From a virus: 64,000 nt of DNA. The position numbers were made by a program, and so were the translations under genes. The DNA lies in IMG/VR virus record IMGVR_UViG_3300010885_044958, positions 62,001-126,000 of that record. One strand, 5' to 3'. Of this stretch, positions 2,119-62,050 are shown piece by piece; within the stretch, counting starts at the first letter, position 1, and each line of letters opens with the position of its first letter. The notes under the pieces were generated by a model. That model made no database searches. It saw nothing but the letters and a program-made list of their open reading frames with translations, and was not told the DNA's origin.

Positions 2119-4062
2119 CTAGAATAAAGAAAGCTGCATTTGTGGTGCTTGCATTTCCTGAATAATTTTTCTAGTAGACGCAATATAGTGTGAATAATCT
2201 ATATCATACTCTGCCCAAGATTTTTCTTCGTAATTATTAAATAGTAATACTGGATTTCCTACATTAATATGTTCAAATGTTGCATTTGTCTTATATTTTT
2301 TTGCAGTACTTTTTTTCTTTTTTAATAAATATGCAGCAGGTCTTGAGAAATAGTACCTATTAAGATTTTGCACAATCTGATTGTCATAATATACTGAATA
2401 ATCTTTACTTATTTTCTTAGAACAAGTATAATGATATATTCCCAGATCAAATCTATCTGGATTAGAAATTGTTTCTTCTATTGGAATGCCTTTTGTAAAA
2501 AAATTATTTAGAGCCTGCGCAATTACATTTTCATTAACAGAATCACCAAGAGGTATTTCATCTTTACCTTCTTCATCTTTAAGCAACTTAAACAAACCTT
2601 TTCTTTTAGCTTTATCTTTTTCTGTCAGAGCAATATAATTATTTACATTTTTGTAGTAGATAAATTTATATTTCTCATGTTCAAATTCAAGATTAAATTG
2701 CTTTTCTATTTCCTTAAAAGATTCTTGATATTTATGTACTTCTTTCGTAGGTACAATTGCTTCAATTCCATCTGTATTTACTGAGACTACCTGCCAATTA
2801 TTTAAAATACATAGCTCAACAGCTTTAGTTAGCACTAACTGCCCTATAAGTCTTAAACGTAAGGCTCCTTCTGGATAATAGAGCCAACTATGCCCTTGAT
2901 CTAATAACCCGCTTACACCATTCAGAATTAGCTTAAAAAAGGTATCCTTGGTTTTCTGTCTAGCTTTCTTTGCTATAATTCTTTCATCTTTAATAGAAGT
3001 ATATCTTTGCAAAACTTCTGGAAATCTAATGCATCTGTAATTAATTATAAGATTTGGATATAGCGATGCGACATCCGAAGTCATTATCTTATATTCAGAA
3101 TTACTATCATACATCTCATTTTCATTAACAGAATGTAATCCACCTATTCCATAAGACAATCTTATACTAGTATTGTTTTCTATTACTGGCAATTCTTCAT
3201 AAAATTCATTTACTGAATTCATTATTCTTTCAAATAATTTCTGAAAAACTGGTAATTTAAAATTAGGATTGAAATCACTTAAAATATCTTTTACTAATAT
3301 TGTAGGTTTTTCAAATCTAGTATAACGCATTTCTCTAGCAAACAAATCTGGTGTTAATCCTTGAGATTCATCTTTATCACATTTTTCTTTACAATAATCT
3401 TGTAAAAGAGATTCAGAAGCTATTTTTATTGCATCGTAAGACATGCATTGAATACCCGTTTCTTTCCAAATATTCTTTCTTAAAGTGATTTCGTCTTTTC
3501 TTTTTTCTGCCAGCGCATCTAAAATTCCTAGATCATGTACATTATTATATTCTCTAACTTGTCTTATTTGATCTAAAGTAAGAACTGTAGATGGATTATA
3601 GGGCAACTCCATCACTACAGGATAATTCAATTGAATTCCAAGACCTTTTAAACTAATTTTTTTAGAGATGCGCAACATTTTTGCCCAGAATAAATATAAA
3701 TCTATTGAAATCCAATCTGTTTTAAAATAAACATAAGGTTTCAAACAATCCCTATTTAAATCTGTGTCGATTACTTTGTCAGAAAAACTTTTTATCTTTT
3801 GCAATAAATCATCTTTCTTTAGATTTTTTAGTTTTGTCCAATCTTTTAGAAAATATTTTATCACAACTTCATCGTAATGTATTCCATTAAACGAAATCAA
3901 AAACCCTTTAAATTTACTAAAGAAGTCATAAATCTTTTGTCTATCATCAAATTCTTCTGATATCTCTAAATTTACAACTTCTTTAGTTTTAAAGTCTTTA
4001 AACCCACATATAAAAAGATTTCCAAAAACTTCTAAATCAAATTCTTTTACTTCATTACTCAT
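2119..4062 (-). CDS. Family B DNA polymerase (PolB) with 3'-5' exonuclease
   Basis: 647 aa, compact for the family. The exonuclease domain shows Exo I (D9, E11), Exo II (SFNGIHYDE, about 58-66) and Exo III (YNNVHD, 172-177). The polymerase domain shows YGIGGLH (304-310, the YxGG-type link), motif A SDVASLYPNLI with D330, motif B KLILNGVSG (377-385) and motif C VNTDGIE with D431. Motif C has Asn where the family usually has its first Asp (DTD), so the active site deserves checking. It copies the phage genome and is co-transcribed with the upstream GIY-YIG gene, with a four-base overlap. Confidence 0.93.
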   Translation of the reverse strand: MSNEVKEFDLEVFGNLFICGFKDFKTKEVVNLEISEEFDDRQKIYDFFSKFKGFLISFNGIHYDEVVIKYFLKDWTKLKNLKKDDLLQKIKSFSDKVIDTDLNRDCLKPYVYFKTDWISIDLYLFWAKMLRISKKISLKGLGIQLNYPVVMELPYNPSTVLTLDQIRQVREYNNVHDLGILDALAEKRKDEITLRKNIWKETGIQCMSYDAIKIASESLLQDYCKEKCDKDESQGLTPDLFAREMRYTRFEKPTILVKDILSDFNPNFKLPVFQKLFERIMNSVNEFYEELPVIENNTSIRLSYGIGGLHSVNENEMYDSNSEYKIMTSDVASLYPNLIINYRCIRFPEVLQRYTSIKDERIIAKKARQKTKDTFFKLILNGVSGLLDQGHSWLYYPEGALRLRLIGQLVLTKAVELCILNNWQVVSVNTDGIEAIVPTKEVHKYQESFKEIEKQFNLEFEHEKYKFIYYKNVNNYIALTEKDKAKRKGLFKLLKDEEGKDEIPLGDSVNENVIAQALNNFFTKGIPIEETISNPDRFDLGIYHYTCSKKISKDYSVYYDNQIVQNLNRYYFSRPAAYLLKKKKSTAKKYKTNATFEHINVGNPVLLFNNYEEKSWAEYDIDYSHYIASTRKIIQEMQAPQMQLSLF

Positions 4063-4850
4063 ATATATTTTATATTATATTTATTACTTCTTCCTCGCAA
4101 AACATCGTATAAAGCATGTTTATTAATTTTTAATATTTCTGAAGCTTCAATAACAGAATTATATATATCTACATCATTAAAAATTACTTTTTTTCCTTTA
4201 TTTTCTCGATTTGCTTTTTTCATATTTTCTTTTACTTCATCAGTTATGATTCTATTACTCATTCTTTTTGAAGCATCTTGTTTTTGTTTAATTCCTTTTT
4301 CTGATTTAAAAAAATCTTTTCTACTATCAGACATTTTCTGTTTAGTTTTCTCTGAGTGTTTTCTACCTAATTGTTTTTTTACGCGCAAAGCAATACTTTC
4401 TTCAGATCTTTTTAGCCCCGTTTGTATTTTAGACATAAACTCACGTAACTCTGAATTTTTTTCATATCGTTCTAGTGCTTTTTTTCTAATTTTTTGTCTA
4501 GTTTCTTCTGAACAAATTCTCCCCAATGTATTTCCTGCTATTTTTGCAATATTATATTCAGGCTTTAATAGATCAATATAATATTGCTCTCTTTTTATAC
4601 AATTTTCAGGTACGCATATTTCTAAAATTTCAAATATAAAATTTTCTATTCCGTATTTATTAAAAGCTCTTTGCAATTTAATATTACAATGTTTTTTATT
4701 TTCAAGATCTTTTTTATGATGCATTAATCGCATATAAATAAAATCTTTCGCTGCGCACGACCCAACATATTTTTTATTGTTTACTATATTTATAATACAA
4801 TAAACACCATTAAATTGCAATTCTTTTCTTTTAATTTCTAAAAGTTTCAT
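4059..4850 (-). CDS. GIY-YIG homing endonuclease with NUMOD repeats
   Basis: 263 aa. The N-terminal nuclease shows GVYCI (about 15-19) and KYVGS (27-31), the GIY and YIG elements. The middle carries NUMOD3-like repeats (SEETRQKIRKKA, GRKHSEKTKQKMS), and the C-terminus ends in a NUMOD1-like helix-turn-helix (IYNSVIEASEILKINKHAL). It is a free-standing mobile endonuclease that presumably cuts intron- or ORF-less relatives of this locus. It overlaps the polymerase start by four bases and has its own TTTCGTATATTTTATTG promoter motif, 18 bp upstream of its start. Confidence 0.9.
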   Translation of the reverse strand: MKLLEIKRKELQFNGVYCIINIVNNKKYVGSCAAKDFIYMRLMHHKKDLENKKHCNIKLQRAFNKYGIENFIFEILEICVPENCIKREQYYIDLLKPEYNIAKIAGNTLGRICSEETRQKIRKKALERYEKNSELREFMSKIQTGLKRSEESIALRVKKQLGRKHSEKTKQKMSDSRKDFFKSEKGIKQKQDASKRMSNRIITDEVKENMKKANRENKGKKVIFNDVDIYNSVIEASEILKINKHALYDVLRGRSNKYNIKYI

Positions 4851-10125: not shown

Positions 10126-10281
10126 TTATTGTCCTGTGATATAAATAGCGAAGAACACCGCAGTTTTATTAGATTGTCTCCATTCTTTTATAGCTTCTAT
10201 TTCGTCTGTTGCTTCTAGAGAAAAGCCTTTGCTCCAAAAATCATCAACATGATCTTTAAATACAATATGATATTTATTCAT
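10126..10281 (-). CDS. Hypothetical protein, 51 aa
   Basis: MNKYHIVFKDHVDDFWSKGF, a small mixed alpha/beta protein. Its start overlaps the stop of the GIY-YIG gene by eight bases. Not recognised. Confidence 0.5.
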   Translation of the reverse strand: MNKYHIVFKDHVDDFWSKGFSLEATDEIEAIKEWRQSNKTAVFFAIYITGQ

Positions 10282-11077
10282 TTTTATTTAATTTTTGTTC
10301 ATAATATTGTAAATCGGTTTTATTTCTATTTGGATGTTGCAACCAACTATATAATACTTTTACTTTTATATCTATACTATTTGCAGCATCTATTATTTTA
10401 TCAAAAATCTCTCCTGTTTTTATATTAATTATCTTTCTACAATGCATTGGTGTGTATTGTTTATTTACAATATCACTCCAATTAAATTCTGAATTTTCTA
10501 AATATTTATCATAAAAAACATAATTTGATTTATTTGGCATTACACCACGCAACCATTCATCTAATCTCCATTTTTCAATATTGATTGCATCAGCAGCTTC
10601 TGTAATTGTATCATATATAATTTTAGTATTTATATCAATAACTTTTCTACCTGAATTTTTTATTCTTAATATTTTTCTTTTTTGTTGTTCTTCATCTAAA
10701 ACATGCTTACTACCTGTTCTTTTATTATGCATTCTTATTTTTGTTTCATCAGAATGACGCCCTTTTTTATTAGGATCTGTGATTTCAATATTATAACCAA
10801 ATTCTCTATCATTTAATTTTAATATTCTAACCCAGTAATCTTCCCAAAAATTCAATTCTTCTTTTGAACACTCTTGGAGTATTTCAATTATAAAATTTTC
10901 TTCTTTAAAAATATTCCAAGCAGCTTGTAAATGTGGATTATCATGTTTATTTCTACGTAATTTTGACAAATGTTGACTCTGTCTATTCCGAATATTTTGT
11001 GAATACCCTACATATCTTTTTTGATTTATTACATTTATAATTGCATAAATCCCACATTTACTTTCTACACTATTCAT
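10274..11077 (-). CDS. GIY-YIG homing endonuclease with two NUMOD1 repeats
   Basis: 267 aa from the preferred start MNSVESKCGIYAI at 11077; the frame is open to 11167 but that extension lies inside a terminator-bearing RNA. GIYAI and RYVGY are the GIY and YIG elements; Glu in FWEDYW is a candidate catalytic acid. A NUMOD3-like helix (GRHSDETKIRMHN) and two NUMOD1-like repeats (DTITEAADAINI, DKIIDAANSIDI) bind DNA. It lies between the 419-aa gene and a 51-aa gene without visible intron boundaries, so it appears free-standing. Confidence 0.85.
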   Translation of the reverse strand: MNSVESKCGIYAIINVINQKRYVGYSQNIRNRQSQHLSKLRRNKHDNPHLQAAWNIFKEENFIIEILQECSKEELNFWEDYWVRILKLNDREFGYNIEITDPNKKGRHSDETKIRMHNKRTGSKHVLDEEQQKRKILRIKNSGRKVIDINTKIIYDTITEAADAINIEKWRLDEWLRGVMPNKSNYVFYDKYLENSEFNWSDIVNKQYTPMHCRKIINIKTGEIFDKIIDAANSIDIKVKVLYSWLQHPNRNKTDLQYYEQKLNKNE

Positions 11078-11083
11078 AAAATA

Positions 11084-11142
11084 TAAAAACCCTCGAATTA
11101 GGTGCAGCCTCTCATTGGGTAATGAAAGTCCTAAAACGAGGG
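11084..11142 (-). terminator. Intrinsic terminator with long structured loop
   Basis: Minus-strand CCCTCG/CGAGGG stem (11137-11142 with 11090-11095), extended by TTAGG/CCTAA, followed by TTTTTAT. The loop holds an inner CTTTCATT/AATGAGAG hairpin and a segment complementary to the RNA's own 5' end. Confidence 0.7.
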
Positions 11143-11178
11143 AATAATTAGATATTAGTAATCCCAAAGAGAAGCTGC
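11084..11178 (-). ncRNA. Short attenuator-type RNA (copy 1)
   Basis: A leftward RNA predicted to start next to the promoter at 11178-11193 and end at the terminator 11084-11142. Its first 16 nt (opposite 11163-11178) can pair with loop bases opposite 11104-11119: 15 of 16 positions pair, one as G-U, with one U-U mismatch. This pairing cannot coexist comfortably with the terminator hairpin, suggesting terminator/antiterminator switching ahead of the GIY-YIG gene. The same design recurs at 18543-18637. Confidence 0.6.
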
Positions 11179-11193
11179 TAATAAAATATAAGC
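11178..11193 (-). promoter_or_regulatory. Phage promoter motif GCTTATATTTTATTAG
   Basis: Identical over 15 bases to the motif before the late gene at 54116 (GCTTATATTTTATTAG). It precedes attenuator copy 1. Confidence 0.6.
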
Positions 11194-11221
11194 AATTTTT
11201 CTGAGACTACCAAATCTAGTT

Positions 11222-12481
11222 TCATATCTTTATTTTATGTTTTTTAAAAAACTTTTTTGTTTCTGCATATATAGATATTAAATCATCTTTTTGATAAGAT
11301 TTAATTGATTCTACTATTGCATCTTTTTCTGAATCTTTTATTAATTCTAGTCTTTCTAGAAGCTGTTTGCGATTTGCGACTAAGCTAATTTTCTTTGAGT
11401 CATTCTTATAGGAAATCTGTAATCTTGACTTAATAGCTTCTAATCTTTGTTCAGCTTTCTTAATTTCTACTAATTGCGCCTCGATTTTTTCAAAATTTTC
11501 TTCAATATTTGCAACTAACCTTTTTAATTCTTCAAGACCTACTACATTTTTCTTAGCTTCTTCAAAATAGTCTTCACAATTTTTCTTAGATGCCTCGGTA
11601 AATAATAAATTATGCTCTCTATTTATTAGAATTGCAGTTCTAGCTTTTATTTCATCTATTAAACCAAATTTTAAAAATGGTCTGCATTTATTTTCTAATT
11701 CTGTAATCTTTTTTAGAATATCTAATTTTTCTCGTAGATCTGCGCCTTCTTTTAAATAATTTATTACTATTTGTTTTGCTTGTTTTTCTGTATGAATTTG
11801 ACAACTGCTCTCTCCAAAAAATAATTTTTTTAAACGCGCAGTAAAATCATTTTTAGATTTACCCGATTTTATTTCATATTTTACAGTTAAATATAATTCA
11901 TTATCTATTATCTTTTTAAACTTTGAATAATATTTTGAATATACATCTTCTGCAGACATTGCTTCTATTTCTTCAAGAGTCGGCAATTTAACTGGTTCTT
12001 TTTCTACTTTAGCTTTTGGCATTGCTTTCTTTTCTGGCATATTATCTGTTACTAATTCTAAATTTGCACGTCTAAAAACATATCTTGTATTACCAACTTC
12101 TGGATTATTTATGGAATACCAATCATCTCCGCCAGAATTTCCTAATACAGTAAAATTTCTATTCCAATTGCCAAATAATTCTCGATGTAAAACATCTCTA
12201 ACTACACTAATATTTTGCAATTCATCTTCGTCATCAATAATTCTTACGAGCTGTCCTGGAATTAATGCGCCTCTACTAACTAATTCTAAACAATCTTCTG
12301 TAAACCAATGAAATGATAGATCAGGATTGTCTAAATATATTCTATGATTATCAATGCGACTTATTCTAAATTGTGCATCAAAACTTCCTATTCGTGTTAA
12401 TACATCCCCTCGATTTAATCCAATATTAATAAACGCTCTTTCATTATCAGGTACCCTTACTACGTCATTTACATTTAACAT
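11222..12481 (-). CDS. Large hypothetical protein: two SH3-like repeats plus coiled coil
   Basis: 419 aa. Residues about 1-70 and 73-142 look like two related beta-barrel (KOW/SH3-like) units: each opens with a V/I-rich strand and has RISRIDNHRIYL or GDDWYSI-type strands and a closing LELV. A linker rich in Lys/Pro follows, then a long charged helical region (about 160-419) with coiled-coil character. No catalytic motif. It may be a scaffolding or nucleic-acid-associated protein; function not recognised. Confidence 0.65.
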   Translation of the reverse strand: MLNVNDVVRVPDNERAFINIGLNRGDVLTRIGSFDAQFRISRIDNHRIYLDNPDLSFHWFTEDCLELVSRGALIPGQLVRIIDDEDELQNISVVRDVLHRELFGNWNRNFTVLGNSGGDDWYSINNPEVGNTRYVFRRANLELVTDNMPEKKAMPKAKVEKEPVKLPTLEEIEAMSAEDVYSKYYSKFKKIIDNELYLTVKYEIKSGKSKNDFTARLKKLFFGESSCQIHTEKQAKQIVINYLKEGADLREKLDILKKITELENKCRPFLKFGLIDEIKARTAILINREHNLLFTEASKKNCEDYFEEAKKNVVGLEELKRLVANIEENFEKIEAQLVEIKKAEQRLEAIKSRLQISYKNDSKKISLVANRKQLLERLELIKDSEKDAIVESIKSYQKDDLISIYAETKKFFKKHKIKI

Positions 12482-12512
12482 TTGTTTTATATTTTGTGAT
12501 TTATAAAAAATT

Positions 12513-12713
12513 TTAATTTATTTGTATGCACCCAGATCTACATAATTCTACATGGCATCTCCAATAACCACCATTACTATCTGTAAACTTAGATACTTTA
12601 TTCATTGCGCCATGATTTTTGCAATGCGGCGTTTTCATAATTTTTTCAGAATCAGAATGCAAATACACTAATTCAAAATTAGAATTACCATCATCTATTG
12701 GTTTTATTTCCAT
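12513..12713 (-). CDS. Small putative zinc-binding protein, 66 aa
   Basis: A Cys/His pattern (HCKNHG...WRCHVELCRSGC) suggests one zinc site. The start follows the TGCAAAATAGTTAAAAATTT leader element. Function unknown. Confidence 0.5.
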   Translation of the reverse strand: MEIKPIDDGNSNFELVYLHSDSEKIMKTPHCKNHGAMNKVSKFTDSNGGYWRCHVELCRSGCIQIN

Positions 12714-12759
12714 ATAAAAAATTTTTAACTATTTTGCATTTACTCTTTACTTAAGACTT

Positions 12760-12799
12760 AAAAAAAGAGCTACTAGACTAATTAATAATCTAATAGCTC
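12760..12799 (-). terminator. Intrinsic terminator of the tRNA-Arg transcript
   Basis: An 11-bp minus-strand stem GAGCTATTAGA/TCTAGTAGCTC (one G-U), 11-nt loop, followed by seven T. It ends leftward transcription through tRNA-Arg and the structured stretch after it. Confidence 0.8.
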
Positions 12800-13042
12800 T
12801 CTGTGGAAAGTTCAATCTGCAATTCTTACGGTACAGATTACTGGCGACTATTCTAGCTTGCCATAGCTAAAATTATTTTAATAATTCAATATTAACTATT
12901 AACTGATATTGCTCTTGGACATATTACTACTCTCAGTAAGCTATAATTCCTCTTGCCAGTTTGGACCCGTGCTATTATAGTAGTTAAATACTTGTGAATA
13001 TACATAGAGATTAATCTATATATTATTGAATTATTTTTGTAG
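12800..13042 (-). ncRNA. Structured non-coding stretch between tRNA-Arg and terminator
   Basis: No gene of credible length. On the minus strand there are hairpins TTACT/AGTAA, TAGCT/AGCTA and AATCTG/CAGATT within 240 nt, and the strand ends at the strong terminator. Either a separate RNA processed from the tRNA transcript or a long trailer; identity unknown. Confidence 0.4.
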
Positions 13043-13113
13043 TACCTCTGGCAGGTAACGGGCCTGCGCACTCCAAATTAGAAGTTTGGTGCTCTTCACT
13101 GAGCTACAGAGGC
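13043..13113 (-). tRNA. tRNA-Arg (anticodon UCU), non-canonical elbow
   Basis: Acceptor GCCTCTG/CAGAGGT, D stem GCTC/GAGC, anticodon arm CCAAA-CTTCTAA-TTTGG reading UCU (codon AGA, very common in these genes), T stem GCAGG/CCTGC, discriminator A, no encoded CCA. The D loop AGTGAA lacks the usual GG and the T loop CCCGTTA lacks TTC, so the standard D-T loop contact is missing on both sides. Confidence 0.8.
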
Positions 13114-13120
13114 TTATATA

Positions 13121-13624
13121 TTAAATTATATTTTTATAACTTTTGCCTCTGATAATATCAGAAACAACTGTTCTTTTAATATTAAAAATTTCTGCAATTT
13201 CATTTACTAATAAATGTTTACTAGTTTTTAATAATAATTTTATTTCTTTAACTTGTTCTTCGGTTAACTTTCTATTTACAGGAATATTGCCATTCTCAAA
13301 TTTATGGCCTTCTGGTATTTTCATTCGGCCCTTCTTTAGACAATCTTGCATATTATCTTTAGGTGTTCCTAAAAACAAATGATCTGGATTAACACAAGAA
13401 GGATTGTCACAATGATGACATACAAAAATTCCTTTGGGTATTTCACCTTTATGAAGCATAAAACTTAGTCTGTGCATGTCCATCATTTTTCCTTTTACTT
13501 TTATTGAACCATAACCATTACGTTTTGCTCCAGTCCAATTCCAGCAAGAATCTGTTTTTTCAGTTCTTTCAAATAATTTTTTTGTTAAAAAATCTCTTTC
13601 TAATTCTTCCATAATTTGTATCAT
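13121..13624 (-). CDS. HNH homing endonuclease (HNH_3 type) with C-terminal HTH
   Basis: 167 aa (or 163 from the ATG at 13612). Hallmarks CWNWTGA, GYGSIKVKGK, MHRLSF, VCHHCDNPSCVNPDHLFLGT and DNMQD follow in order (about 26-91), with the HNH His pair intact. The C-terminal helix-turn-helix (VNEIAEIFNIKRTVVSDIIRG) binds DNA. The gene ends seven bases before tRNA-Arg, a position suggesting homing into the tRNA locus. It has its own TTTCGTATATTTGTATTG promoter motif. Confidence 0.9.
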   Translation of the reverse strand: MIQIMEELERDFLTKKLFERTEKTDSCWNWTGAKRNGYGSIKVKGKMMDMHRLSFMLHKGEIPKGIFVCHHCDNPSCVNPDHLFLGTPKDNMQDCLKKGRMKIPEGHKFENGNIPVNRKLTEEQVKEIKLLLKTSKHLLVNEIAEIFNIKRTVVSDIIRGKSYKNII

Positions 13625-13640
13625 AGACTAACTTGATAAT

Positions 13641-13661
13641 CTACAATACAAATATACGAAA
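13641..13661 (-). promoter_or_regulatory. Phage promoter motif before HNH gene
   Basis: Minus-strand TTTCGTATATTTGTATTGT; differs from the 4868 copy mainly by one G in the T-rich part. Confidence 0.5.
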
Positions 13662-14200
13662 GTTTTGTGGAACCACAAAATGTAGTTCGTAGTGGACCCG
13701 GTGTCATCGCAGACACGTCTACGCAATCATCTGCTCACAGAATTTTTACATGTTTTAGCATAATTTTCTTTCTATGCAAATATTCTATTTTTTAATATTT
13801 TCAGATTTCCTTAGTATTCAATCACCGAAGTGATACTCTATAGTCGGCAAATAATCCAATATTGGTATACTCTAGAAAAAATACCAAACAATTCAATTTA
13901 GTTGTCTTAGAACTGTTTTAATAACCAGACGCTGATGTTGTGAATTATGCACAAACAGCTTCAACATTGGAAGAGCAAAGGCTGTTCAAGAACAGATCAA
14001 TATTGCCTTCAGAACCTACTGTTACGTTAGACGTATTAGTGTTTACATTTATTGTTTATATAGCTTATTTGATGGAAGCCAATACTACTCCATACATGCC
14101 TGCTCACCTATAAATCCCGCATCAATTCTAAAACGGGCCCAATTTAAAGATAGACACAAATCCGTTAAGATTCATGCCTATCTAGATTTTTTTGTAATAT
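13662..14200. ncRNA. Large highly structured non-coding region (about 540 nt)
   Basis: No credible gene. Many nested inverted repeats: TTTTGTGG/CCACAAAA (13665-13682), CGTAG/CTACG enclosing GTGTC/GACAC, GCATA/TATGC, TCAC/GTGA, TTGGTAT/ATACCAA, CTGTTC/GAACAG, ATGGA/TCCAT and CCCG/CGGG. On the minus strand the TCAC stem is capped by a C(TTCG)G tetraloop, which favours leftward transcription; on the plus strand an AGATAG/CTATCT stem is followed by seven T near 14193, which would terminate a rightward RNA. Its size and tRNA neighbourhood are like those of large phage ornate RNAs, but I do not recognise a specific family. Confidence 0.5.
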
Positions 14201-14204
14201 GTTT

Positions 14205-14528
14205 TTAATTATTTTCTGGTATTACTAAATCTGGTAATTCTAATGCGTGATTTTGACGGTCCAACATGTTCTCTAAGCCATGCCAGATGTGATTGATTAT
14301 TGATTGCCCAGTCGATTTTTTAATTTTTTCTGGCGCATTCTTTTGCAATAATAATCTTCTTTCTTCAGACCTAAGCTTTATATCTTCTTTAGATCTTATT
14401 CCTTCAGTATATATATTTATTATACCTGATTCTCTACAAGATCTTTTTCTTTCTAAATCTGTTGTAGAAATAGTGTGTATTGCGCCATGAATTTTTTTGG
14501 CTCCGTTAAATACTAGTTTTGCTGACAT
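14205..14528 (-). CDS. Hypothetical protein, 107 aa
   Basis: Basic N-terminal half, helical centre (SKEDIKLRSEERRLLLQK), no recognised family. Preceded by the TTTAAAAACTCAAAAAC leader typical of leftward genes. Confidence 0.55.
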   Translation of the reverse strand: MSAKLVFNGAKKIHGAIHTISTTDLERKRSCRESGIINIYTEGIRSKEDIKLRSEERRLLLQKNAPEKIKKSTGQSIINHIWHGLENMLDRQNHALELPDLVIPENN

Positions 14529-14556
14529 GTTTTTGAGTTTTTAAATTGTTATAAAT

Positions 14557-14748
14557 CTACTTTTTATTTAAAGATTTTCTCCATTCAGAAAATGCATTCT
14601 TTTCTGCATCTTTTTCTTGTTTGCCTCGGTAAAAATTTGGATCTTTTACTAATGGGTAATCAATTGGACTTGTGGAAATTCCCACAAATGATGGATGCTT
14701 ACTCCAGTGTTGATAACTTGATTCTACTTGTTTTCTTTCTACTGACAT
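14557..14748 (-). CDS. Hypothetical protein, 63 aa
   Basis: Polar, Ser/Lys-rich small protein with aromatic residues (SSYQHWSKHPSFVGISTS); no motif recognised. Nine bases downstream of the membrane protein gene. Confidence 0.5.
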   Translation of the reverse strand: MSVERKQVESSYQHWSKHPSFVGISTSPIDYPLVKDPNFYRGKQEKDAEKNAFSEWRKSLNKK

Positions 14749-14757
14749 TTGTTTAAT

Positions 14758-15255
14758 TTAAGACCATTTAATCTTTGCACAATATTTATTTTTCCAAGCT
14801 TTAAATCCTTCTATTATAGGATTAGGTGTTTTTGGTTTTGATTCTTCATATAATTTATATGCATTTTTCTTTGCAAAATATTTTATTATTTCTGCAATAC
14901 CAAATCCTATAGCAATAATAGCAACAAAACATAATAAAAAGAATAACATTGTTCCAAATCCTATTAAATACCAATAATGAGATATTGGTTGTTTTTTATC
15001 CCACCACATTGTATAGCAAACTATAGAGATAAAAACATGTATAAATCCCCATCCTGCTGGTACACCATCATCTGGATTTTTTCTGTCTAAACAAAAATTT
15101 AATACATGTGCGGGCCATCCTGGAATTGCTAAAATACAAGCAAATACTAAAGACCAGAAAAATCCACAAATATTTCCAGGAAGACTATATGTATGGTAAG
15201 TACTGCGCCAAAGCCATGCATACCAACTATTTTCTTTAAATTCTAATTCTTTCAT
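14758..15255 (-). CDS. Multi-pass membrane protein, 165 aa
   Basis: Three to four hydrophobic segments: about 26-51, 69-84 and 92-125, separated by a charged loop (DRKNPDDGVPAGWG). The C-terminal 35 residues are basic and cytosolic-like. Might alter the host envelope or exclude other phages; no family recognised. Confidence 0.6.
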   Translation of the reverse strand: MKELEFKENSWYAWLWRSTYHTYSLPGNICGFFWSLVFACILAIPGWPAHVLNFCLDRKNPDDGVPAGWGFIHVFISIVCYTMWWDKKQPISHYWYLIGFGTMLFFLLCFVAIIAIGFGIAEIIKYFAKKNAYKLYEESKPKTPNPIIEGFKAWKNKYCAKIKWS

Positions 15256-15267
15256 AAGTTTTTTTAT

Positions 15268-15549
15268 TTAATTTATTCCGTAAATGCTCAAAATCTTGCG
15301 TTCATTCTCAAAAAAATCTCTGGTTGAGGCGCATTTAAGCAAAACACTTTGTAAAGATACTAATCTTTTTTTAGAATTGGTAATTAATTCTTTTATTTCT
15401 TTTATCTTATTTAGATCTTCTACTAGAGCATTTGAGACATACTCTAATAGTTCCAGATCCTCGCAGCTATCACCTAAGGAATAGATGTAACCGTCTAATA
15501 TGTCACTAGCTGCATTTGCAATTTTATGAATTTTTTTAGGATTTTGCAT
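15268..15549 (-). CDS. Hypothetical helical protein, 93 aa
   Basis: The frame is open to an ATG at 15579, but the stretch between holds the TGCGCC...TTTTTTAAAAAAA leader element seen before other genes, so MQNPKKIHKIA at 15549 is the better start. Mostly helical, no recognised motif. Confidence 0.55.
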   Translation of the reverse strand: MQNPKKIHKIANAASDILDGYIYSLGDSCEDLELLEYVSNALVEDLNKIKEIKELITNSKKRLVSLQSVLLKCASTRDFFENERKILSIYGIN

Positions 15550-15658
15550 TTTAATTTTTTTAAAAAATCTGGGGCGCATTTTATTACTAAAACACTATTC
15601 AATAATCGAGGAACTCAAAAAACCTTACTATTAAACTTATACCCCAGACTTAAATTAT

Positions 15659-15844
15659 TTAATAAGCATATTTTGAATTTTTGCGCTCTTCATAATCCGA
15701 ATCTTGCCAGTCAAGCTCACCTTCATCTTCAAAATCATCATCTTCATCTTCTACTATAATTACAGGTCTTTTAGACTTAGGTATAAATTCTGAATCATCA
15801 CTAATTGAGTGTTTGTTGGTCTTCTTGTTAGTTTGCGTTTTCAT
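15659..15844 (-). CDS. Hypothetical charged protein, 61 aa
   Basis: A basic N-terminal half followed by a very acidic stretch (VEDEDDDFEDEGELDWQDSD). Likely disordered; DNA-mimic-like acidity could target a host DNA-binding protein, but this is speculation. Confidence 0.5.
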   Translation of the reverse strand: MKTQTNKKTNKHSISDDSEFIPKSKRPVIIVEDEDDDFEDEGELDWQDSDYEERKNSKYAY

Positions 15845-15854
15845 TTTTTAAGTT

Positions 15855-16037
15855 TTAATGAATGTGATCAAAAAATAATTGTTCTAGTTTTATTAAATTT
15901 TCAAGCTCAAAAATTGATTTCTTTTTCAAATGCATTTTGTCTATAAAAAAATATTTTTTCTCGTGCAATCTATAAAACTTCACAGCTTTATACAAGACTT
16001 TTATTAAATCTTCTAATGAATCTATTTTAGTCTTCAT
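15855..16037 (-). CDS. Hypothetical protein, 60 aa
   Basis: Helical, Lys- and Phe-rich small protein. Its ATG overlaps the TGA of the 55-aa gene upstream (ATGA), a coupling signal. No family recognised. Confidence 0.5.
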   Translation of the reverse strand: MKTKIDSLEDLIKVLYKAVKFYRLHEKKYFFIDKMHLKKKSIFELENLIKLEQLFFDHIH

Positions 16038-16201
16038 TCAGCCTCGTGATTTTCAAATGTCTTTTTAATAATATGCCTCTTCTTGTTTGCCTTATGATTT
16101 TTGTGTAGACTATGATCCTTCTTAGGTTTAGATATTATACCTAAAAATACATTTATAGCGATATTAAGTGCTCGTTGATGTTTTTGCTTGAGTTTCTTCA
16201 T
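16034..16201 (-). CDS. Hypothetical very basic protein, 55 aa
   Basis: MKKLKQKHQRALNIAINVFL, then a Lys/His-rich tail. A net charge this positive suggests nucleic-acid or membrane contact. The leader AAAAAACTAAAAAACTT repeats the A-rich style of the arm. Confidence 0.5.
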   Translation of the reverse strand: MKKLKQKHQRALNIAINVFLGIISKPKKDHSLHKNHKANKKRHIIKKTFENHEAE

Positions 16202-16208
16202 AAGTTTT

Positions 16209-16784
16209 TTAGTTTTTTAGTTTTTTCCGAATTTTATAAATAGAATTTTCTATTGTTTTGGTGCTGCATTTGTATTTTTTTGCTAATTCTCTGGCATTAT
16301 AACCTTGCGCAAACATTAAAATTTTTTTATACTCCGCTCTAGTCAATTTGTTTTTAACTGCTAACAATTCTTCAGCACATTCTAATTGTAAATCTATTCC
16401 GGCTTCTTGTTCAGGACTAACCCAATCATAGAAATTTTGATAAGACACATCTCCAATTACATCAGCTTGCCGTAAAGTTCTAGGTTTATCTGACATTTTA
16501 CCAGATATCATCCATTTATTTAGATTTTTTAGTCTATTTAAAAAAACAGTATTGATTATTTTTTGCATCCACAAATTTAATTCCCCGTATGTAGTGCCTT
16601 GAAATTGCAAAATTTTTTCACGCAAACGCATAAATGAATCATTAATAACTTCTTCGACTAATTGTTTATCTAAACACTTTTTTAGAAGCATTTTCTGATA
16701 TAAAGCATAAGTTTTCTCATAGAAATTATCAATTATACCATTTTTTATATCTTCTACTGCATCTATTTTATCTTGTTCTGTCAT
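16209..16784 (-). CDS. Sigma-like factor (ECF-type, regions 2 and 4)
   Basis: 191 aa. A region 2-like segment (EEVINDSFMRLREKILQF, then LWMQKIINTVFLNRLKNLNK, about 41-95) and a region 4 helix-turn-helix at the C-terminus (LTRAEYKKILMFAQGYNA, AKKYKCSTKTIENSIYKIRK). This is the layout and size of ECF sigma factors. It is a good candidate for recognising one of the phage promoter motifs in this window, though the pairing is inference. Two bases separate it from the membrane protein gene upstream. Confidence 0.75.
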   Translation of the reverse strand: MTEQDKIDAVEDIKNGIIDNFYEKTYALYQKMLLKKCLDKQLVEEVINDSFMRLREKILQFQGTTYGELNLWMQKIINTVFLNRLKNLNKWMISGKMSDKPRTLRQADVIGDVSYQNFYDWVSPEQEAGIDLQLECAEELLAVKNKLTRAEYKKILMFAQGYNARELAKKYKCSTKTIENSIYKIRKKLKN

Positions 16785-16785
16785 T

Positions 16786-17028
16786 CTAAATCTTGATTAT
16801 TAAACCATTTACCAAAACTACTTGTGTATTTCTTTTTTTTTGCAAATCCCCCCATACACAAAGATTTAATATAATTGTACCCAATGTATTTATTATTGGC
16901 ACAAACCAAAAAAATCTTGCACCACATGCAGATTTAAGCCAAATGTCGTGTTTTGCACACAACCTAGCTGCATTTCTACATCCAAATATACTTAGAATAT
17001 AAATACTTATTAAAATTATTATTATCAT
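16786..17028 (-). CDS. Small membrane protein, 80 aa
   Basis: Two hydrophobic helices (MIIIILISIYILSIFG and FWFVPIINTLGTIILNLCVW) with Cys in the connecting loop. Overlaps the next membrane protein gene by four bases. Function unknown. Confidence 0.5.
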   Translation of the reverse strand: MIIIILISIYILSIFGCRNAARLCAKHDIWLKSACGARFFWFVPIINTLGTIILNLCVWGDLQKKRNTQVVLVNGLIIKI

Positions 17029-17213
17029 TCTACTAATTTTTGTATTAATTCAAAATATTTTTCTACAGCTATTTCTATTAGCATAAATTCACATTGCCCA
17101 GTAAAAATCCAAAAAATGCAACAGGCAATTACACCCACACACATAATAGGACAAATAAAAGGAACAAATATTACAGCTAATATAACTGCTGTAAGTCTTT
17201 TTAGTATTTTCAT
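17025..17213 (-). CDS. Small membrane protein, 62 aa
   Basis: Hydrophobic from residue 6 to 42 (LTAVILAVIFVPFICPIMCV...), probably two short helices, then an amphipathic tail. Follows the GCGTTTTTAAAAAAT leader element. Confidence 0.5.
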   Translation of the reverse strand: MKILKRLTAVILAVIFVPFICPIMCVGVIACCIFWIFTGQCEFMLIEIAVEKYFELIQKLVE

Positions 17214-17275
17214 AAATTATTTTTTAAAAACGCTTGTTCTTACAATGAATCTACAAACAACCTATAGTATTTTTA

Positions 17276-17464
17276 TTATATTCTAGATGCAAGCACAGAA
17301 ATTTCCCGTGTAATACGTGCTCTGTCTAAATCTGACAATAATACAAATTCATCAGCTTTACATTCTTTAGTTACTTTTGTATTAGATTCTAATTGTGCCT
17401 TCAAAAAATTTAAGGTTCGCACTCTACGTTTTCTGGCTGATGCCTGTTTGCTCCATGTTTTCAT
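17276..17464 (-). CDS. Hypothetical basic protein, 62 aa
   Basis: Basic N-terminus (KTWSKQASARKRRVRTLNFL) and helical remainder. Could bind nucleic acid. Upstream lies a TGCAGTTTTTTAAAAA element. Confidence 0.5.
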   Translation of the reverse strand: MKTWSKQASARKRRVRTLNFLKAQLESNTKVTKECKADEFVLLSDLDRARITREISVLASRI

Positions 17465-17586
17465 ACACTTCTTAGCTTTTAATTGTTATATAATAATTGT
17501 TTGTAATACATTTTTAAAAAACTGCATGTGAGCTGTCTAAGACATTTATCCTATCAATAAGGCCACTCACATACAGAACTCAATCT

Positions 17587-17808
17587 TTAAGCTTTTACTA
17601 ACTCCTTCAAATCTGCCAAACTGTGATAGATTTTTGTTACTTTTTTGTTTTGTTGTGTGCGCTTTGAGATTGCTACTTTTACCCTATCATTAGGATGCGT
17701 AGCAGGTAAAAACTTGCGTCCAATTTTTGGAAAATTAGAGGCATCTTCTGTTAGTGGAACTTCTTTTACTTCTCCACCAATTACGAATACTGTTGGTTTC
17801 TTGTTCAT
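17587..17808 (-). CDS. Hypothetical protein, 73 aa
   Basis: Short beta-rich start (PTVFVIGGEVKEVPL) and basic centre. Leader TTTAAAAACTCAAATAT precedes the ATG. Between it and the 62-aa gene is a 120-bp spacer with a CAGTTTTTTAAAAA element and no gene. Confidence 0.5.
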   Translation of the reverse strand: MNKKPTVFVIGGEVKEVPLTEDASNFPKIGRKFLPATHPNDRVKVAISKRTQQNKKVTKIYHSLADLKELVKA

Positions 17809-17827
17809 ATATTTGAGTTTTTAAATA

Positions 17828-18064
17828 TTATAAATTTATATCAAGCACATTTATATTAGTAAATACCTTTTTTTTATCTAAAATTACAAATTTGTATTTA
17901 TCTGTAATCTTATTAATTCTTTTTTTAATATCTTCTATTGTTTTTGCATCATTTTTTATAGTGTAAAGGCACATACTAAAATTCTTAGAGTTATAATGCC
18001 CCAGCTCATCATCAATAAATTCATTTACTAATGCATTAAATATTTTATTATTTGTGTTTGGCAT
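17828..18064 (-). CDS. Hypothetical protein, 78 aa
   Basis: Helical N-terminal half and a Lys/Ile-rich C-terminal half; no motif. Its start lies inside the end of the 52-aa gene (17-bp overlap). Confidence 0.5.
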   Translation of the reverse strand: MPNTNNKIFNALVNEFIDDELGHYNSKNFSMCLYTIKNDAKTIEDIKKRINKITDKYKFVILDKKKVFTNINVLDINL

Positions 18065-18206
18065 TTCTAATAATTTTATTAGATACTAAAGCTTTTATTA
18101 TATATTGTGCATCTGCGCCTGGAAATTTTTTATTTATTTCAGTTGAATGCCATTTTCCTTTTAAATTTGCAAAATAATTTCCTGCTATTAGTGTTTCATT
18201 ACTCAT
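18048..18206 (-). CDS. Hypothetical protein, 52 aa
   Basis: MSNETLIAGNYFANLKGKWH, then a helix-turn-helix-like pattern (STEINKKFPGADAQYIIKAL). Overlaps the next gene. It may be a small DNA-binding protein, but that is only a pattern impression. Confidence 0.45.
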   Translation of the reverse strand: MSNETLIAGNYFANLKGKWHSTEINKKFPGADAQYIIKALVSNKIIRNAKHK

Positions 18207-18542
18207 ATTCTTTTATTTAAATTCTTAGTGTATAGATTTAGATTGATTTGCGTTTTAATTTTTTAAAATAAGCAACCTGCTTTGATGAATAGGCTGGTAA
18301 ATAAATCAAGTTAAGGCAAAGCCTATAGCCTACAAAACTCTGCCTTAACTATGTCTTACCTGCTCAGCACGAATGAGTTTTGGCTAATACCAGGAGTACC
18401 AAGTTAAGAAGACCTTTGTATTATTTAAAAGTAATAATTGCAATCTATTGAAAAAATATATTATAATTATTATTATACGTGCAGAATATGCTACGATAAT
18501 GTCATCCCAACTATATTGACTAATTTCCTTGTTGGTTGGGCA
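18207..18542 (-). ncRNA. Structured non-coding region downstream of attenuator copy 2
   Basis: No credible gene in about 335 bp. On the minus strand it holds CCCAAC/GTTGGG (18506-18540), a 10-bp AGTTAAGGCA/TGCCTTAACT hairpin (18309-18350) and a CCAAAACTCATTCGTGC motif (18368-18384) that recurs at 23859-23929. It would be expressed only if the terminator at 18543-18587 is read through. Confidence 0.4.
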
Positions 18543-18587
18543 TAAAAAACCCGTTGAGTGTTCGCCTTGGAAGCTTTCTCAACGGGT
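18543..18587 (-). terminator. Strong intrinsic terminator, loop complementary to RNA 5' end
   Basis: A 10-bp stem ACCCGTTGAG/CTCAACGGGT followed on the minus strand by six T. The 19-nt loop contains TTCCAAGGCGAACA, the exact complement of the upstream segment opposite 18624-18637. Confidence 0.85.
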
Positions 18588-18637
18588 CAGATATATATTT
18601 GACTATAAATCCCTTATTTGCGTTTCCAAGGCGAACA
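18543..18637 (-). ncRNA. Short attenuator-type RNA (copy 2)
   Basis: Promoter motif at 18636-18649 places the 5' end at or just inside TGTTCGCCTTGGAA (opposite 18624-18637). That segment is perfectly complementary over 14 bp to the loop of the terminator (18559-18572). A 14-bp helix does not fit inside a 19-nt loop closed by a 9-10-bp stem, so the two structures should be mutually exclusive: 5'-end pairing acts as antiterminator. Same architecture as copy 1 at 11084-11178 with different sequence. Confidence 0.65.
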
Positions 18638-18649
18638 AATAAAATATAC
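18636..18649 (-). promoter_or_regulatory. Phage promoter motif before attenuator copy 2
   Basis: Minus-strand GTATATTTTATTTG, same core as 47719, 27299 and 22704. Confidence 0.6.
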
Positions 18650-18908
18650 AACTAATTTTTGAAATAAAAAAATGCAACAAAATAGGTGGCTTGAGTTCTT
18701 CGTAGAATTATGATATTATCTCCTTAGTCTCTAAGCAACATCCACCACAGCTCTAGATTACATTGTCTATTTTATTACAATTTCTTTTAAAATGCGCCTA
18801 GAAAATTAGAAAAAATCCCAGGCATTTATTTAAGTGAAACTGTATTTACAGATACAGTATCTTTTCTGATGCAAATTTACACCAAAATAATTTATAAACC
18901 AAATTTAT
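18650..18908 (-). ncRNA. Non-coding region with cloverleaf-like fold
   Basis: No credible gene. Bases 18679-18773 can form an outer AAAATAG/CTATTTT stem, GGTGG/CCACC, and inner hairpins CTTAG-AGA-CTAAG and TTCT/AGAA; it resembles a tRNA outline but lacks usable anticodon and T-loop signatures. A separate ACTGTAT/ATACAGT hairpin lies near 18839-18860. Confidence 0.35.
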
Positions 18909-19013
18909 TTATCCTATATTCCAAGGACTATTAGAATCTTTTCTTACAAACCAAGATGCTTTCTTTGGTTTTCTTATTAATAATTTCTTTAATATATTAT
19001 ATATTTTGTGCAT
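18909..19013 (-). CDS. Hypothetical basic peptide, 34 aa
   Basis: MHKIYNILKKLLIRKPKKAS, Lys-rich, with a Trp-containing tail. ATG overlaps the TAA of the 76-aa gene (TAATG). Confidence 0.4.
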   Translation of the reverse strand: MHKIYNILKKLLIRKPKKASWFVRKDSNSPWNIG

Positions 19014-19243
19014 TATTGTACAAATTCAATTGTATAATCTTTTTGTAAATGTATTATTACGTCATGCCCAATAACAATATTTCTACCTGTTGGATATGTT
19101 ACAGTATATTGCACTTTTTTATTTAAAATTTCTGGTTCAAGATGCATGTTATCACCAACGATATTAGCCATTATAGCATTTACAGTTCCGTTATCAATTG
19201 TTGCAATTTTTACTTTTTCTTTATTTAAGATTAATATTTTCAT
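19013..19243 (-). CDS. Hypothetical protein, 76 aa
   Basis: Beta-rich small protein (KILILNKEKVKIATIDNGTV, VQYTVTYPTGRNIVIGHDV). Preceded by the TGCATTTTAAAAAATAAA leader element. No family recognised. Confidence 0.55.
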   Translation of the reverse strand: MKILILNKEKVKIATIDNGTVNAIMANIVGDNMHLEPEILNKKVQYTVTYPTGRNIVIGHDVIIHLQKDYTIEFVQ

Positions 19244-22585: not shown

Positions 22586-22610
22586 AATTGAAATGTTTTT
22601 TGAGTTTGAA

Positions 22611-22621
22611 TATAAAATATA
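22611..22621 (-). promoter_or_regulatory. Promoter-like TATATTTTATA before the 79-aa gene
   Basis: Core matches the phage motif and lies 26 bp upstream of the preferred start. Confidence 0.35.
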
Positions 22622-22688
22622 ATTATATTTTCGTCCAAGTCTGATCACAAACTAATTTTAAAGTCTCCTTGGCTGACTGATTTGGAAT

Positions 22689-22732: not shown

Positions 22733-23332
22733 ATGGTTTATTTTATCGGTAATAAAGAAAAACAATTAGTAAAGATAGGTAAAGCTAATCAACCCAAAAG
22801 AAGAATCGAAGAAATACAAGTAGGGTTTCCTTATCAACTTGAGATATTTTTGATAATAGAAGGCAATGAAGCAATTGAAAAAACTCTTCACAATAAGTTT
22901 AAAAATAAACACATTAGAGGAGAATGGTTTATATTAGATGAAGATATATTATCATTTATTGACAATCCTCAAATAGAAATTAATACAATATATCAAGACT
23001 CTTTAGATCATATGGTTAGATATAGTAAAGAAACAGAAAACAAAATTGAACTATTATATTCTAAATCTATGTCTAATATAGAAATAGCTAATCAATTAAA
23101 TATTAATATTTCTAAAGTGAGAAAAATTATTAAACAAAGAAAATTAGCTAGTAAATATAGAATATATAAAGAATATAAAAACAAATTAACATCGCAATAT
23201 AATAAAGATAGAAATATTAGAAAAAAATACAGAGAATTATATAGAAAATCTCTAATAACTAAAGAACAATTAGATAATATACTTCTTCAATATCCCACTA
23301 AAGATAAAAGAGGTAGAAAACCTAATGAATAA
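22733..23332 (+). CDS. GIY-YIG nuclease, T5orf172/MUG113 type
   Basis: 199 aa. The N-terminal domain carries VYFIG and LVKIGKA (the GIY and YIG elements), RRIEEIQVGFP, and the family's NKFKNKHIRGEWF ending with a catalytic-type Glu (about 2-70). The C-terminal half is a Lys-rich helical DNA-binding region with a helix-turn-helix (MSNIEIANQLNINISKVRKI). A mobile endonuclease, first gene of the rightward arm. Confidence 0.88.
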   Translation: MVYFIGNKEKQLVKIGKANQPKRRIEEIQVGFPYQLEIFLIIEGNEAIEKTLHNKFKNKHIRGEWFILDEDILSFIDNPQIEINTIYQDSLDHMVRYSKETENKIELLYSKSMSNIEIANQLNINISKVRKIIKQRKLASKYRIYKEYKNKLTSQYNKDRNIRKKYRELYRKSLITKEQLDNILLQYPTKDKRGRKPNE

Positions 23333-61474: not shown

Positions 61475-62050
61475 ATGCGATCTACGTACAAAAAACCAAA
61501 TGTAAAAGGACCACGTTTTAGAAATAAAGTAAAAAGAGCGTTAGATCAGGACTTTTTTGTTAAATTAACAAAGATGTATCCTGATTTAACTATTTCTAGA
61601 CAAGATGTTAGAAAAATTCTTAATACATTCCATGCAATTTGCATTAAAGAAATTGCAGAAACCAGAGATGGAATAGAACTATTAGAACAACTCGGCAATA
61701 TAATAGTAGGTAAATTTAAGACTCAAGAAACCTGGAAAGGTAATGTTCCTAAATCCATACAATACGAAACTAAGATAGATTACTTAAACTGGGAACAAAA
61801 TGAATGGATTTGCAAAATATTCTATTCTAATTTTGCTTCTAAATACAGATTCAGAAATGCAGCACTTTGGGCATTTGAACCTGTAAAATCTATGAAAAAA
61901 GTAGTCTCCAAAGCCTTTACTAAAGACCCCTATAAATATGTTTTTGCAGATCACTACAACAGAATAAATAAAGTATTCAGACTTGCAAAGAAGGCATTAA
62001 ACGAAAAATTAAAAGCACAACAAAACGATGAGCCAACTCCTTTACAGTGA
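61475..62050 (+). CDS. HU/IHF-like or DNA-binding virion protein, 191 aa
   Basis: Basic N-terminus (KKPNVKGPRFRNKVKRAL), then ISRQDVRKILNTFHAICIKE and ELLEQLGNIIVGKFK (about 40-86) following an HU/IHF-like helix-strand order; the C-terminal half is basic and helical. Second such gene in the window. Overlaps the ring protein gene by 23 bases. Confidence 0.55.
   Translation: MRSTYKKPNVKGPRFRNKVKRALDQDFFVKLTKMYPDLTISRQDVRKILNTFHAICIKEIAETRDGIELLEQLGNIIVGKFKTQETWKGNVPKSIQYETKIDYLNWEQNEWICKIFYSNFASKYRFRNAALWAFEPVKSMKKVVSKAFTKDPYKYVFADHYNRINKVFRLAKKALNEKLKAQQNDEPTPLQ

Follow-up and report, generated by a model that had tools for sequence, protein, structure and literature searches.

In the 64 000-nt stretch of DNA analysed here (the window; positions 62001–126000 of a 134-kb virus record), two short leaders have 5′-ends complementary to the loops of their own terminator hairpins. 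Is this complementarity selected, and what could it do? Terminase and portal match phage families with crAss-like phage relatives; among isolates, the portal matches Leptolyngbya phage Lbo-JY46 best (27% identity). In a sister contig, G001, the portal shares 89% identity with that of the window phage; relatives sought via the 419-aa protein and the sigma factor were not found among viral contigs.

Six leaders with a 5′-end complementary to the terminator loop

In both leaders of the window (copies c1 and c2; Table 1) a promoter is followed by a segment A, a terminator hairpin (arms B and B′) with the complement A′ in its loop, and a U-run. The initial annotation described c1 as a promoter motif followed by a segment complementary to the leader's own terminator loop; this held, all 14 of 14 positions being Watson–Crick pairs. 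For c2 it proposed the same design with 15 of 16 positions paired, one as G-U, and we saw exactly this: 14 Watson–Crick pairs, one G-U and one U-U. For either copy, the A:A′ score was reached by none of 20 000 within-leader shuffles (p < 5e-5).

A first hairpin scan, based on MFE, did not detect the elements and was superseded. When the window was first scanned with strict settings, which disallowed the imperfect stem of c2, c1 was the best match (17.5 versus 8.6 for the best in 30 shuffled strands). A looser scan, with imperfect stems allowed, gave combined scores of 24.0 (c1) and 22.9 (c2), both over the shuffled background, in which A scores reached 15.1 and combined scores 19.6.

Furthermore, four more copies (c3–c6) were observed in the window phage and sister contigs, for a total of at least six. 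The search that yielded c3 and c4 disregarded pairing; c5 and c6 came from the pairing scan itself. Within-leader shuffles gave p-values of 0.0037, 0.069, 0.0013 and 0.00035 for c3 to c6; the combined value for c1–c6, 4e-13, is optimistic, as c5 and c6 were chosen by pairing. The weakest copy is c4 (7 bp), whose pairing alone is not significant. A relaxed scan of shuffled sequence (three times the real length) returned 13 matches, the best at 19.6, as strong as c3, c5 and c6; another match, at 17.9 and without promoter, was present in family DNA (L304). As false positives of this strength arise in shuffled sequence, c3, c5 and c6 rest on promoter and pairing jointly, not on score alone. By sequence, all six copies have the make-up of an intrinsic terminator: a stable hairpin and immediately thereafter a U-run.

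Table 1. Coordinates of the leaders, their parts and associated features
Feature	Location	Strand	Remarks
c1 promoter	18638..18675	-	-7 box TATATTTTATT 18648-18638; degenerate -33, TTTTT in place of TTTGG
c1 segment A, TGTTCGCCTTGGAA	18624..18637	-	predicted +1 to +14
c1 terminator hairpin	18549..18587	-	10 bp; stem ACCCGTTGAG/CTCAACGGGT
c1 A′ TTCCAAGGCGAACA	18572-18559	-	loop AAAGC-TTCCAAGGCGAACA
c1 U-run	18548-18544	-	U5; six T if last stem base counted
Non-coding stretch 3′ of c1	18275..18542	-	homologous to those after c3 and c6
c2 promoter	11180..11214	-	TTTGG N19 TATATTTTATT; box 11190-11180
c2 segment A, GCAGCTTCTCTTTGGG	11163..11178	-	predicted +2 to +17
c2 terminator hairpin	11090..11142	-	stem CCCTCG-TT-TTAGG/CCTAA-TT-CGAGGG; 2x2 U-U internal loop
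c2 A′ CCCAATGAGAGGCTGC	11119-11104	-	in terminator loop
c2 U-run	11089-11085	-	U5
GIY-YIG homing endonuclease gene after c2	10274..11077	-	Pfam PF01541 E 2e-9; PHROG homing endonuclease
c3	G000 ~6317	-	promoter box search
c4	G000 36423	+	promoter box search
c4 terminator stem	L298 ~16490-16537		endonuclease type, as c2
c5	G001 and three other contigs		identical leader; pairing scan
c5 terminator stem	L065 2934-2989		endonuclease type, as c2
c6	G001 ~31.6 kb	-	pairing scan
Other homologous non-coding stretches	L052 ~1150-1400; L303 ~16215-16509	-	
GIY-YIG gene	4059-4850		promoter without leader
MUG113/T5orf172 gene	22733-23332		promoter without leader
Endonuclease_7 gene	L306		promoter without leader
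LAGLIDADG gene	L304		promoter without leader
Locations without a contig name are in the window.

Promoters, pairing partners and downstream sequence

The promoter motif is genuine: it recurs in the phage, TTTGG N18–20 TATATTTTATT occurring nine times in the 134-kb record, and the reversed pattern, used as control, does not occur. The −33/−7 form of the phage promoter is similar to the Bacteroidota promoter consensus, TTTG / TAnnTTTG (PMC7366714). Among 18 promoters listed, six (those of c1–c6) run into a hairpin and U-run ∼80–100 nt downstream, and all six of these leaders have the A:A′ pairing; most of the remaining promoters have a start codon within ∼32 nt. Without a leader, the same promoter also serves other nuclease genes in these phages (Table 1). 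The MUG113/T5orf172 gene and its promoter are adjoined, on the opposite strand, by a RAGATH-1 hammerhead ribozyme (window 22603–22679, minus strand) that is barely over the gathering score.

Promoters of the copies have a mean pairwise identity of 69% over 38 bp, versus 24% for the first 18 nt of the leaders. Scores of A against its own loop were 17.5, 16.8, 11.5, 8.5, 11.5 and 13.0 for c1–c6, versus a mean of 6.5 and a maximum of 9.6 for A against the loops of other copies. Of 720 assignments of A segments to loops, only the true one attained the observed score sum, a test partly circular for the pairing-selected c5 and c6, though not in the same degree for c1 to c4. The earlier suggestion that architecture conserved without sequence points to a selected RNA function is strengthened by the six copies, by the best own-loop assignment and by the homing endonuclease downstream of half of the copies. 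We consider it almost certain that the A:A′ pairing is under selection.

Copy c2 precedes a GIY-YIG endonuclease, and c4 and c5 precede Endonuclease_7 proteins; from the end of the U-run to the ATG there are 7 nt (c2, ATG at 11077), 10 nt (c4) and 6 nt (c5). G001 lacks the c2 cassette, and the homologue of the 51-aa gene there comes immediately after that of the 419-aa gene; G000 lacks the c5 cassette, and its 231-aa gene directly adjoins the next one. These empty sites indicate that promoter, leader and gene arrive together. With a nuclease gene at a site that is empty in a relative, c2 and c5 belong to free-standing homing endonuclease cassettes, homing itself being only predicted. At the c4 site in G004 we saw by eye a methyltransferase-like ORF in place of leader and endonuclease (L286, reverse strand, 610–1023). 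The terminator stems of c2, c4 and c5 all contain a 2x2 U-rich internal loop.

One could suppose that the hairpin, 6–10 nt before the AUG, acts on translation, restricting it on read-through or read-in mRNA in the manner of hairpins at T4 homing endonucleases (PMC2988022); this explanation, which leaves A:A′ and copies c1, c3 and c6 unaccounted for, seems very improbable.

The claim that both window copies lie upstream of accessory genes stands for c2, directly before its GIY-YIG gene; c1 is followed by ∼330 nt without a recognisable gene. Rather than a nuclease gene, c1, c3 and c6 precede a homologous non-coding stretch (∼250 nt) with a hairpin, in which some changes are compensatory. Double changes affect 6 of 21 predicted pairs; with some of the pairs broken, a covariation term that is slightly unfavourable and z-scores for folding of −1.3, −0.9 and −3.5, a structure of this stretch is suggested at most. 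No convincing Rfam match to the stretch was found. In all three stretches a short 5′ element duplicates part of the 3′ arm of the hairpin.

The absence of a nuclease at c1, c3 and c6 also speaks against a reading at the DNA level, with A and A′ an inverted repeat of operator sites for the cassette's own nuclease. Autorepression by I-TevI in T4 is a precedent (PMC2988022); A adjoins the promoter, and each nuclease would have its own site. However, A′ is invariably inside the terminator loop, c2 has a G-U pair and A does not resemble the surroundings of the empty sites to any unusual degree; we judge operator sites highly unlikely.

A predicted contest with the terminator

Promoter, order of parts, own-loop pairing, gene positions and the two empty sites are read directly from the DNA. 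Which function do they suggest? We put at about even the chances that the leader is a cis-acting transcription attenuator, with A:A′ opposing termination. RNA polymerase would start at the phage promoter, placing A at, or at most 10 nt from, the 5′-end. Terminator arm B and a short linker would be made first; A′, whose end is 10–21 nt from the U-run, would then emerge and pair with A; its exit from the polymerase would roughly coincide with the moment at which the terminator has to form. Pairing of A with A′ would work against completion of the B:B′ hairpin, and read-through would reach either a homing endonuclease (copies c2, c4 and c5) or, in c1, c3 and c6, the non-coding stretch. Anything occupying A or A′ would restore termination. 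We infer in this scheme the start site, the antagonism of A:A′ to the terminator rather than assistance to it, and the trigger of the switch.

ViennaRNA energies of the A:A′ fold and the terminator fold (kcal/mol) were −27.9/−25.6, −29.3/−23.0, −24.4/−27.1, −11.3/−15.2, −21.9/−20.2 and −28.4/−27.6 for c1–c6, close to each other in all six copies; in each, pairing of A with A′ is predicted as soon as A′ has been transcribed and ahead of B′. Such close energies and early pairing would suit a co-transcriptional contest. Among the functions named in the initial annotation, attenuation or antitermination fits these predictions best; its alternative, an antisense-responsive switch, stays in contention. 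Read-in transcripts are predicted to sequester A for c2, c3 and c4 only. The leaders share no leader peptide (an ATG near +19 is present in c3 only), and neither a trigger nor a conserved aptamer was found in them.

Besides the lack of a shared peptide, trigger or aptamer and the non-significant pairing of c4, two features speak against the attenuator. The terminator fold is more stable than the A:A′ fold in c3 and c4; and with A′ placed in the loop, outside the arms of the terminator, the two helices share no bases and could coexist as a pseudoknot. With L2+L3 linkers of 5–19 nt such coexistence is conceivable, and a stable small RNA could result, an H-type pseudoknot protecting its 5′-end and read-through being irrelevant. 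This seems unlikely, as the homing endonucleases of c2, c4 and c5 have their start codons 6–10 nt past the U-run and homologous sequence is retained beyond the terminator in c1, c3 and c6.

Alternatively, the terminated short RNA might act in trans, its A′ or A pairing with A or A′ on transcripts newly made from that copy, in a copy-specific feedback; plasmid copy control and phage P4 immunity are precedents for feedback by antisense RNA. Such self-recognition would explain why A and A′ are private to each copy and fit best their own loop, and for A of c1–c4 and c6 no exact partner outside the own copy was found in the phage DNA searched. Elsewhere in the phage, A had no convincing target. On the other hand, pairing inside one RNA is kinetically favoured, and accumulation of the short RNA is hypothetical; we think action in trans rather unlikely. 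It is similarly doubtful that A/A′ is a private RNA identity tag of each mobile cassette, by which its own short transcript regulates its own expression alone. If true, several cassettes could share one phage and stay orthogonal, as plasmid incompatibility groups do.

Searches elsewhere and comparison with known systems

At 80 Endonuclease_7 loci of other viruses, 17 hairpin/complement matches passed the filter besides c5 (L064), among them L078 (A 13.8) and L090 (A 15.4, very GC-rich). As no promoter box was present in the upstream sequence inspected and shuffled sequence yields such matches too, we judged the 17 to be background, collectively and not case by case. Scanned stretches of Lbo-JY46, csAssE and Cellulophaga phage gave a few matches (best 19.2, in csAssE and antisense to an antirepressor gene); lacking the leader promoter, they were treated as background. 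At L295 35823–35884 (minus strand) of csAssE, a hairpin opposite an antirepressor gene has a 14-nt complement directly before it, probably by chance. Promoter-like boxes in other viral contigs revealed no convincing copy outside the window phage group, and a search of viral and bacterial contigs for the c3/c6-type pattern returned G001 itself and unrelated stretches, several of them ordinary terminators. That the design is absent outside this group is not proven. We found no description of this leader in the open-access texts searched, which is no proof that none exists.

RNA hairpins control T4 homing endonucleases I-TevI, I-TevII and I-TevIII, segB and mobE, as well as seg43 of Aeromonas phage 25 (PMC2988022); as in c2, c4 and c5, an RNA structure is located right at the start of a phage homing endonuclease gene. 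Most T4 hairpins sequester the ribosome binding site on transcripts initiated upstream (PMC2988022), whereas in the phage leaders the cassette's own promoter precedes the entire structure, at whose end lies an intrinsic terminator. A T4-type hairpin is absent from the proximal-promoter transcript; with the structure of all copies wholly downstream of the proximal promoter, we rejected this assignment.

The nearest described logic is that of the guanidine-IV (mepA) riboswitch, for which a kissing loop has been proposed to keep the terminator stem from being completed easily, allowing read-through (PMC11611296); capture of a loop would hinder the terminator in both. There the kissing loop is made by a ligand-binding RNA, whereas here a plain 5′-end pairs, over 7–16 positions, and there is neither a conserved aptamer sequence nor an Rfam match. 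No guanidine-IV match was found in the window at the gathering threshold, or in window 18100–19100 or L052 1000–1800 at E ≤ 5; membership of this curated Rfam family was rejected.

If the attenuator reading is true, the leader would be an RNA switch of great simplicity, built from only a 5′-end and a terminator loop with a freely exchangeable pairing sequence, and would link RNA-level control with selfish homing endonucleases in crAss-like phages. Because A/A′ can be swapped, the design can be tested directly and might serve as an orthogonal regulator. In phage P4 immunity RNA and the antisense attenuators of plasmids pT181 and pIP501, complementarity decides termination in a leader, specificity being variable and the design kept; here, in contrast, a single transcript carries both complementary parts, with the terminator loop as the partner.
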